21,290 nt of DNA from positions 1-21,290 of the IMG/VR virus record IMGVR_UViG_3300007276_000374; one strand, written 5' to 3'. The notes beneath the pieces are model-generated. The model did no database searches and was not told the origin of the DNA. It saw only the letters and a list, made by a program, of their open reading frames with translations. This document shows positions 385 through 1,189 of the stretch, in pieces. The position numbers were made by a program, and so were the translations under genes. This DNA is from a virus. How positions within the stretch are numbered: position 1 is the first letter of the stretch; each line of letters opens with the position of its first letter.

Positions 385-725
385 TTAGACCTTATGGACA
401 CCCTAATAGATTATTTAGGGCCCTGGCCTTTCCTTTGTTCTTAGTAGTGCTCATCAACACTATCTAAATTATTCTCCCACACACTGCTTAACTATTCGGA
501 ATCCGCTTCAACATCCTGTTCAGTTGATCAAACTGCCCCATTTAGTGCCCTGTTACCCGCTTTTAGCGTCGGTCTCAAACGCTGTTTGTGTGTGTCGTGG
601 CGTCTCTTTGTGTGCCAGGGTAAATGCTTAATGTTTCGGATTAGTTGGTTTACGACGGACTACACGCGCTTCTAACGTCGAACTGTTGCATATATTGCAA
701 TAGTTGAGGTATAGGGGTGTGGGGT
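385..725. other. Gap without a clear gene (left of the tRNA-like element)
   Basis: I see no convincing protein gene here. Two very short minus-strand frames have some translation signals. One runs 541 to 488 (17 aa, AGGG 6-7 nt before the ATG). The other runs 454 to 392 (20 aa, MSTTKNKGKARALNNLLGCP) and ends 8 nt before the alternative start at 384. Either could be a leader peptide, but neither is strong enough to call. A minus-strand transcript coming through the tRNA-like element would cross this region into the genes at 1-348. Confidence 0.4.
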
Positions 726-744
726 TAGTCGTTATAGATAAGAG

Positions 745-846
745 TGTGCGGGCTGGACTCGAACCAGCGACCTTAGTTCGCACATTATCAAACCTTGCAA
801 AGCCTGATAAATATAAACCGCGCTCTCCCAACTGAGCTACCGCACA
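745..846 (-). tRNA. tRNA-like gene with enlarged anticodon arm (isotype unclear; UGC in the apical loop)
   Basis: The minus strand shows a 7-bp acceptor stem (TGTGCGG / CCGCACA), T8-A9, a canonical D arm (GCTC-AGTTGGGA-GAGC) and a perfect T arm (GCTGG-TTCGAGT-CCAGC), preceded by AGGTC as in class I tRNAs. The region between D arm and variable loop is 47 nt instead of 17. It folds as a long hairpin: GGTT/AACT, an internal loop, TTATCA/TGATAA, then a C-G pair closing the 7-nt loop TTTGCAA. That loop has T33, TGC and A37 as in a tRNA-Ala(UGC) anticodon loop. The whole is 102 nt; CCA is not encoded. It could be a degenerate tRNA, a tRNA with a 30-nt insertion, or a tRNA mimic. It sits inside the inverted repeat 726-892. 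Confidence 0.6.
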
Positions 847-851
847 AGCGC

Positions 852-880
852 TTGACTAGTATCGCGCCAGTTACTCTTAT
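852..880 (+). promoter_or_regulatory. Possible sigma-70-type promoter on the plus strand
   Basis: TTGACT (852-857, 5 of 6 to consensus) is followed after 17 nt by TCTTAT (875-880, 4 of 6). Transcription would start near 887 and run to the terminator at 1161-1186. The -10 lies in the right arm of the inverted repeat. This is based on pattern only. Confidence 0.3.
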
Positions 881-892
881 CTATAACGACTA

Positions 893-1189
893 TGGAGGAC
901 TTTAGAAAGGATTGTGTCTACGTATTCGGAAAGCACGTGCATTATTCAATACGGCTTATTCAACAACTGGCTCCGGCGCATTTCTGCTAGGCACAAAAAA
1001 AGGCTATTAATAACAAGCCTAGTTGGTGTTAGGCTGCTTAGGGTGCAGTTGAGTCGATACAAAAACCCGATGCCTCTAAACTTGTTACTAATAACCTTTC
1101 ACTCAACAATCTTCTAAACATTCCAGGCCACCACAGCCTATAACATTATTTTACTACATTACCCGCAAATGTCTAGCGGGTTTTTTATA
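893..1189. other. Gap without a clear gene; possible structured plus-strand RNA
   Basis: No protein gene is convincing. A GTG frame at 914-1117 and a 32-aa ATG frame at 892-990 look like chance. The stretch has several pairable segments: 1006-1017 with 1081-1092 (11 of 12 pairs), AGCCTA/TAGGCT (1016-1021/1030-1035, which competes with the first), and GTTGAGT/ACTCAAC (1048-1054/1101-1107). It is bounded by a possible promoter at 852-880 and a plus-strand terminator at 1161-1186, which together would give an RNA of about 300 nt. Confidence 0.35.
1161..1186 (+). terminator. Rho-independent terminator, plus strand
   Basis: ACCCGC and GCGGGT form a 6-bp GC-rich stem with a 9-nt loop, followed directly by a T run. 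On the minus strand the hairpin is followed by AATGTAGT, not a T run, so it should act only on plus-strand transcripts. Its position just past the end of the minus-strand operon therefore calls for a plus-strand transcript from the 880-1160 region. Confidence 0.6.

Follow-up and report, generated by a model that had tools for sequence, protein, structure and literature searches.

The closest described case to the locus reported here is GOLLD with tRNAs in its linker. GOLLD is a large noncoding RNA of phages that has a conserved 3' part and a variable 5' part or linker, in which tRNAs are sometimes found (PMC12286853). The locus resembles it in its conserved 3' part, its variable part and the presence of tRNAs in or near the linker (PMC12286853), so that the phage locus here shares with GOLLD and ROOL the presence of tRNAs within or next to a large noncoding RNA. 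However, the locus has no sequence or structure match to the Rfam models of GOLLD or ROOL, and its tRNA-like part is abnormal and lies inside a long inverted repeat. In a second described arrangement, a theta ribozyme comes after a phage tRNA, and a role in tRNA-end processing has been proposed for it; the likeness in this case is that a phage tRNA is joined to a second RNA motif (PMC10879173). The order of the parts differs from that arrangement, since CCGGAGCCAGTTGTTGAATAAG lies upstream of the element studied here, while it directly follows tRNA-Met in two other records (L264 and L291). Moreover, no match to an HDV-like or other ribozyme was found in Rfam scans of the sequences analyzed. 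A third comparison is mascRNA (MALAT1), which is tRNA-shaped, has a non-canonical anticodon region, is part of a longer noncoding RNA and carries an RNase P cut site. The tRNA shape, the odd anticodon region and the longer noncoding RNA are shared, and an RNase P cut, known for mascRNA, is putative here; mascRNA is an animal nuclear RNA and no relatedness is implied.

The stretch of DNA analyzed, hereafter the window, is a 21,290-base IMG/VR virus record from a marine tailed phage. Genes for terminase, portal and capsid are encoded on the minus strand and genes for Erf and SSB on the plus strand; of the cultivated phages, Vibrio phages 1.112.O and 1.265.O have the Erf proteins most like that of the window (62% and 61% identity, respectively). 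The region from approximately 395 to 1190, about 800 nt around the tRNA-like element, is without a convincing gene. Searches of IMG/VR with the tail-fibre protein found no relatives, searches of IMG/VR for the exact inverted-repeat arm found no match, and a search of plasmids for similar DNA found short tRNA T-arm and D-arm fragments only. In an Rfam cmscan of the window at E <= 1, tRNA was the sole family and neither GOLLD nor ROOL was matched. Likewise, tRNA was the only named Rfam RNA in the window, in Oceanospirillum phage GJ44, in L243 and in the Vibrio loci described below.

A tRNA-like element enclosed by a perfect inverted repeat

The covariance search proposed in a first-pass annotation of this DNA reports a tRNA on the minus strand at 846-744 (Rfam RF00005, full model; 41.6 bits, E 6.8e-6, with a gathering threshold of 29), an element of 103 nt that was missed when ARAGORN was run on the window. 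The acceptor stem (846-840/751-745) has 7/7 pairs, the T arm (768-752) has a stem of 5/5 pairs and the D arm (837-822), delimited from sequence and fold, has a stem of 4/4 pairs. The 7-bp acceptor stem and the D and T arms of a functional elongator tRNA are therefore all present, and these complete stems, together with the Rfam score, confirm that the element is tRNA-like with near-canonical acceptor, D and T arms. Base 73 is a C (at 744) and CCA is not encoded in the window copy. G-1 is absent at the 5' end of the element, and acceptor pair 3-70 is U-A rather than G-U. Folded alone, the tRNA part reaches -36.5 kcal/mol (z -2.5) on the minus strand, with 7 G-U pairs, versus -26.5 kcal/mol without any G-U pair on the plus strand, and this better minus-strand fold favors a minus-strand RNA.

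The anticodon arm is where the element departs from a tRNA. Positions 27-43 correspond to 820-774, which is 47 nt versus the usual 17, and the fold bears out the previous description of an arm 30 nt over the normal length that forms a long interrupted hairpin, with a 4-nt UGCA apex. The extra 30 nt fold back so that their pairing keeps the register of the anticodon stem, and they include G-U pairs that are possible in the RNA strand only. The element lacks a 5-bp anticodon stem that carries a 7-nt loop and U33, so that decoding is ruled out for the element as it stands, in agreement with the first-pass annotation. The same annotation had taken the apical TTTGCAA as the loop of a tRNA-Ala(UGC), and this did not hold. 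A G-U pair at acceptor position 3-70 is the mark of tRNA-Ala, and this identity pair is absent; in addition, forcing a 7-nt UUUGCAA loop gives a fold 6.1 kcal/mol worse than the fold with the 4-nt UGCA loop. TTTGCAA is thus an apical sequence only, and a displayed Ala(UGC) loop was rejected. Among the pattern-found phage tRNAs listed, several others (for example L112, L044, L090, L085, L105 and L029) combine intact acceptor, D and T stems with an anticodon arm of 37-53 nt that forms a single long hairpin; long-armed tRNAs are therefore not unique to the window.

The element is enclosed by a perfect inverted repeat at 726-745 and 873-892 (20/20 complementary, 127 nt apart), of which 873-892 is the 5' arm and 726-745 the 3' arm in the sense of the minus-strand RNA. 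No repeat of this kind was reached in 500 shuffles of the flanks, and no perfect inverted repeat in the window is longer at spacings up to 300 (maximum 15 and mean 11.3 in 60 dinucleotide shuffles). The 3' arm begins at acceptor base A72 and thus shares one base with the acceptor stem, which substantiates the earlier account of a perfect 20-bp duplex whose 3' arm abuts the acceptor stem. A small hairpin, GGCGC...GCGCUU, is predicted between the 5' arm and the acceptor stem (847-868, minus strand), and the whole element, comprising repeat and tRNA part, folds at -70.9 kcal/mol (z -6.0). Leader-trailer repeats were also considered as a general trait of long-armed phage tRNAs and rejected, since the window alone has a repeat of more than 12 bp among the matches listed of pattern-found phage tRNAs.

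The noncoding locus and its variable slot in related phages

Six Vibrio phages have a complete copy of a noncoding locus of approximately 490 nt, and partial copies were found in 52 phage records. The usual layout of this locus begins with a TATAAT promoter and a 105-137-nt 5' domain that ends in a hairpin and a U tract; a variable slot comes next, and a 3' block last. P1, a 7-bp helix formed between the leader and the hairpin loop, covaries through compensatory changes; with strands placed by hand, a phage's own strands form 6.77 of 7 pairs versus 3.87 for strands combined across phages, and an automatic longest-match test gave a difference in the same direction that was less sharp (7.19 versus 5.79). 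The pattern CTTTTTTNTGCCTANCAGAAA was rejected as a marker of the locus because it is also carried by ordinary terminators (L404 and L405). In L004 (2240-2730) and its relatives, the promoter is conserved within an inverted repeat and is accompanied by the covarying helix and the U-tract hairpin. The Vibrio-phage locus is possibly an antitermination or attenuator RNA.

The noncoding region of the window is homologous to this locus, and parts of the layout can be recognized on its minus strand. A promoter-like site, TAGACA-16-TAAAAT, lies in a short inverted repeat at 1148-1175 and aligns with the position of the Vibrio-phage TATAAT promoter, with matches to the consensus no commoner than chance. 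It is followed by a 5' domain (989-1148) comprising a P1 helix (1107-1101/1054-1048), in which 7/7 pairs form, and a long hairpin that ends in a U tract (1001-995). With a covariance model built from 15 Vibrio-phage 5' domains and the window left out, the top match in the window is at 1148-989 (minus strand, 19.8 bits, E 0.0063 with filters off); the same place has an E of 1.6 in a 945-kb search, and the covariance-model match taken alone is weak evidence for homology of the 5' domain. Local alignments of the 5' side beat all 200 shuffles for L004, L392, L393, L403 and GJ44, though not for every member, and those of the 3' side did so for L004. The 3' block motif GCGTTTGAGACCGACGCTAAAAGC (558-589, minus strand) is common to Vibrio phages such as 1.003.O, and 589-558 matches their noncoding region; the alignment score of the 3' block versus L004 is 51 (shuffle maximum 35), and other members gave weaker or non-significant scores.

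Between the 5' domain and the tRNA-like element lies a first slot element (914-994, minus strand), which is closed by GTGCCTA/TAGACAC (6/7 pairs). This closing stem is acceptor-like, and the repeat-enclosed tRNA-like element starts 21 nt beyond it. The first slot element contains the conserved motif CCGGAGCCAGTTGTTGAATAAG (976-955) and CACGTGCTTTCCG (939-927), and the 52 nt upstream of the tRNA-like element at 977-926 (minus strand) match phage GJ44 with E values of 3e-6 to 3e-7. The same part of the window (976-926, minus strand) can be described as GAATAAGACACGYGNTTTCCG, a stem, GGAGCCAGTTGTTGAATAA and a second stem, an arrangement that is also present in GJ44 (L003, 2755-2806) and in L243, L244, L248, L255, L259, L264, L271, L274, L276, L280, L291, L296 and L301. 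Compared with the other carriers, the window and GJ44 have the motif in circularly permuted form; it is directly 3' of tRNA-Met in L264 and L291, and is often located just ahead of a start codon. It has no Rfam match and is a candidate ribozyme or regulatory RNA. L243 additionally carries a noncoding stretch (2580-1980, minus strand) with a repeated hairpin, GACAGCTTGGAAAGACAAGCAC, and variants of it, and a similar hairpin, TGACAGCCGGAAAGACGGCA, was observed in GJ44 (L003, approximately 2663-2682).

The contents of the variable slot differ widely among the relatives. The slot is empty, with a linker of 20-22 nt, in L004, L390, L395, L396, L397 and L400, and holds ordinary tRNAs in phages Seahorse (Trp, Arg and Gly) and vB_VaM_H2 (Met and Arg). 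Vibrio phage 242E40-1 has a 103-nt tRNA-like element (36.6 bits), which is annotated as tRNA-Und, and Vibrio phage phiV208 has another of 103 nt, with 7/7 acceptor and 4/5 T-stem pairs. Hairpins that are not tRNAs and have a 7-bp acceptor-like closing stem were found in 1.275.O (98 nt including the following base) and 1.054.O (62 nt); in L402 and L408, 7-bp closing stems of the acceptor type persist with different sequences around a body that is no longer a tRNA. A model search of Erf-related IMG/VR contigs yielded two further members. In one of these, L335, a first slot element closed by GTGTCTG/CAGACAC is followed by an 11-bp inverted repeat (1/500 flank shuffles) that encloses a tRNA-like element of 97 nt; this element has perfect acceptor and T stems, an encoded CCA and a degenerate, unusable anticodon arm. 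The other, L311, has a tRNA-Ser within an 8-bp repeat (27/500 shuffles, so that the repeat by itself lacks significance) as well as another element of 104 nt, which is weakly tRNA-like and scores 27.5 bits, below the family threshold. Overall, the abnormal tRNA-like contents (242E40-1, phiV208, L335 and, weakly, L311) span about 97-104 nt. Their apical loops differ, and the relatives' anticodon arms are not homologous.

These comparisons bear in two ways on the first-pass annotation. The idea of a tRNA in a long duplex as something recurrent gains from the same layout in L335 and from the abnormal elements of approximately 103 nt in 242E40-1 and phiV208. The annotation had also held that homologues with an ordinary tRNA would make the element a decayed tRNA; such homologues exist (Seahorse, vB_VaM_H2 and L311), but others carry an abnormal element or none. 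The slot contents of the related phages suggest that the tRNA shape has been reused for a non-decoding purpose.

Explanations for the element

The reading that we tentatively prefer, and would place a little below an even chance, is that the element is a tRNA-derived, non-decoding module that occupies the variable slot of a noncoding RNA locus in phages and retains its acceptor/T half for a role in end processing. It is based on the complete top half combined with an overlong anticodon arm that looks unspliceable. The locus would be transcribed from the minus-strand promoter near 1175-1148, through or past the U-tract hairpin. RNase P recognizes mainly the acceptor/T-arm stack, and an RNA that retains the top half of a tRNA could be cleaved there by RNase P and 3' tRNA nucleases. 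The tRNA-like module, joined to the remaining transcript by the 20-bp helix, might thereby serve to mark RNA ends or to protect them, and its role is probably that of an end-processing signal. An anticodon arm that decodes nothing would be free to vary, and retention of the acceptor/T half as a processing mark would explain the variable anticodon half. Against such a module, CCA is unencoded and the 3' flank is locked in a 20-bp duplex that could hinder 3' processing; ordinary tRNAs in some relatives are furthermore what would be expected if the abnormal elements were decay products.

Decay is the main rival, although we consider it rather unlikely. By this explanation, a phage tRNA from a cassette was hit in its anticodon arm by an insertion or by fusion of tandem tRNAs and is now being lost. 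The slot does grade from three or two ordinary tRNAs via abnormal elements to hairpins of 61 nt and empty 20-22-nt linkers; BT-1011 retains only the beginning of the tRNA-Met of vB_VaM_H2, and the lack of an encoded CCA in the window copy also fits. A decaying tRNA is harder to reconcile, however, with acceptor, D and T pairs that are all intact, with an extra 30 nt whose pairing follows the register of the anticodon stem, using G-U pairs that form in the RNA strand only, and with a 20-bp repeat that is free of mismatches. The similar layout of L335 would also need an independent origin.

Phage tRNAs are known to counter tRNA-targeting defences, and the element could be a decoy that mimics a tRNA and soaks up host anticodon nucleases or other such defences. 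While it is tRNA-shaped and non-decoding, and its long arm could display a cleavable loop, the preferred fold has no canonical 7-nt anticodon loop, the apical loops of comparable elements are unlike each other, and a literature search, mostly of open-access journals, gave no paper on tRNA-like phage RNAs as decoys for anticodon nucleases. None of the observations points specifically to a decoy role, which is conceivable but which we regard as improbable.

Equally improbable is a large ornate RNA, that is, a structural transcript of approximately 770 nt like GOLLD or ROOL that shows its tRNA-like part on the 20-bp arm. The minus-strand folds of the noncoding regions are better than random (z -2.9 in the window, -4.4 in GJ44 and -4.1 in Vibrio phage 1.003.O), but the element itself supplies part of the z-score of the window and the Rfam scan did not match GOLLD or ROOL. 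In addition, the U-tract hairpin resembles a terminator, so that a single continuous RNA is not assured.

Intron-bearing tRNAs of archaea and phages likewise have extra sequence in the anticodon region. Among the matches listed, there are tRNA genes with inserts of 38-50 nt that interrupt the 5' side of the anticodon stem beyond approximately position 28-30, both in viruses (L013, L019, L031, L045, L050, L057, L060, L065, L069, L071, L082, L096, L104, L107 and L109) and in bacterial genomes (L167, L170, L180, L191, L231 and others). In most of these inserts, a short hairpin precedes CAGCAA or a similar (C)AGCAA-type motif. Excision of the insert gives a perfect 5-bp stem, U33 and a purine at 37 in 39 of the 56 motif-bearing tRNAs among the matches listed (17 of the 30 viral ones; 0.04% of shuffles), the 56 including some archaeal tRNAs that have the motif by chance. 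Chryseobacterium and Winogradskyella tRNAs have a different insert with a common ACTTTYCGCT...GGCA...AAAGTTCCTAT (L157, L186, L189, L200, L201, L210, L216, L224 and L227). By their sequences, the 38-50-nt inserts look like tiny introns. A 2014 review describes phage tRNA genes as being without introns (PMC3984707). Given the many phage tRNAs with such inserts, the previous statement that bacterial tRNA introns of such a length are not known is doubtful in general, even though the window element itself is not such a case. An intron-containing tRNA, perhaps a tRNA-His(GUG) from which the 30 nt are spliced out, is the least credible explanation and very improbable, because, despite the insert-bearing phage tRNAs and a C at base 73, which is usual in bacterial tRNA-His, the best 30-nt excision leaves a C27-A43 mismatch, C37 and G38 and restores the anticodon arm no better than chance (score 7.0, equalled by 42% of 2000 shuffles), and the element has neither a CAGCAA motif nor a G-1. 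Taken together, the shuffle result and the loop energy support neither an intron-containing tRNA nor a displayed Ala anticodon.

On a broader level, the locus could represent a new class of structured noncoding RNA in marine phages, with an exchangeable slot in which tRNAs were converted into non-decoding mimics that a long helix presents or from which they are cut, for RNA processing or defence against tRNA-targeting host systems; we regard this proposal as doubtful. A literature search, mostly of open-access journals, found no paper describing these loci. Standard tRNA finders miss such elements, as ARAGORN did here, or label them undetermined. If the preferred reading of a non-decoding module is correct, the top half of a tRNA would have been kept and decoding dropped at a recurrent genomic slot, and the natural series from tRNA to tRNA-like element to acceptor-stem hairpin to empty slot would provide a test of the roles that phage tRNA genes may have apart from codons.
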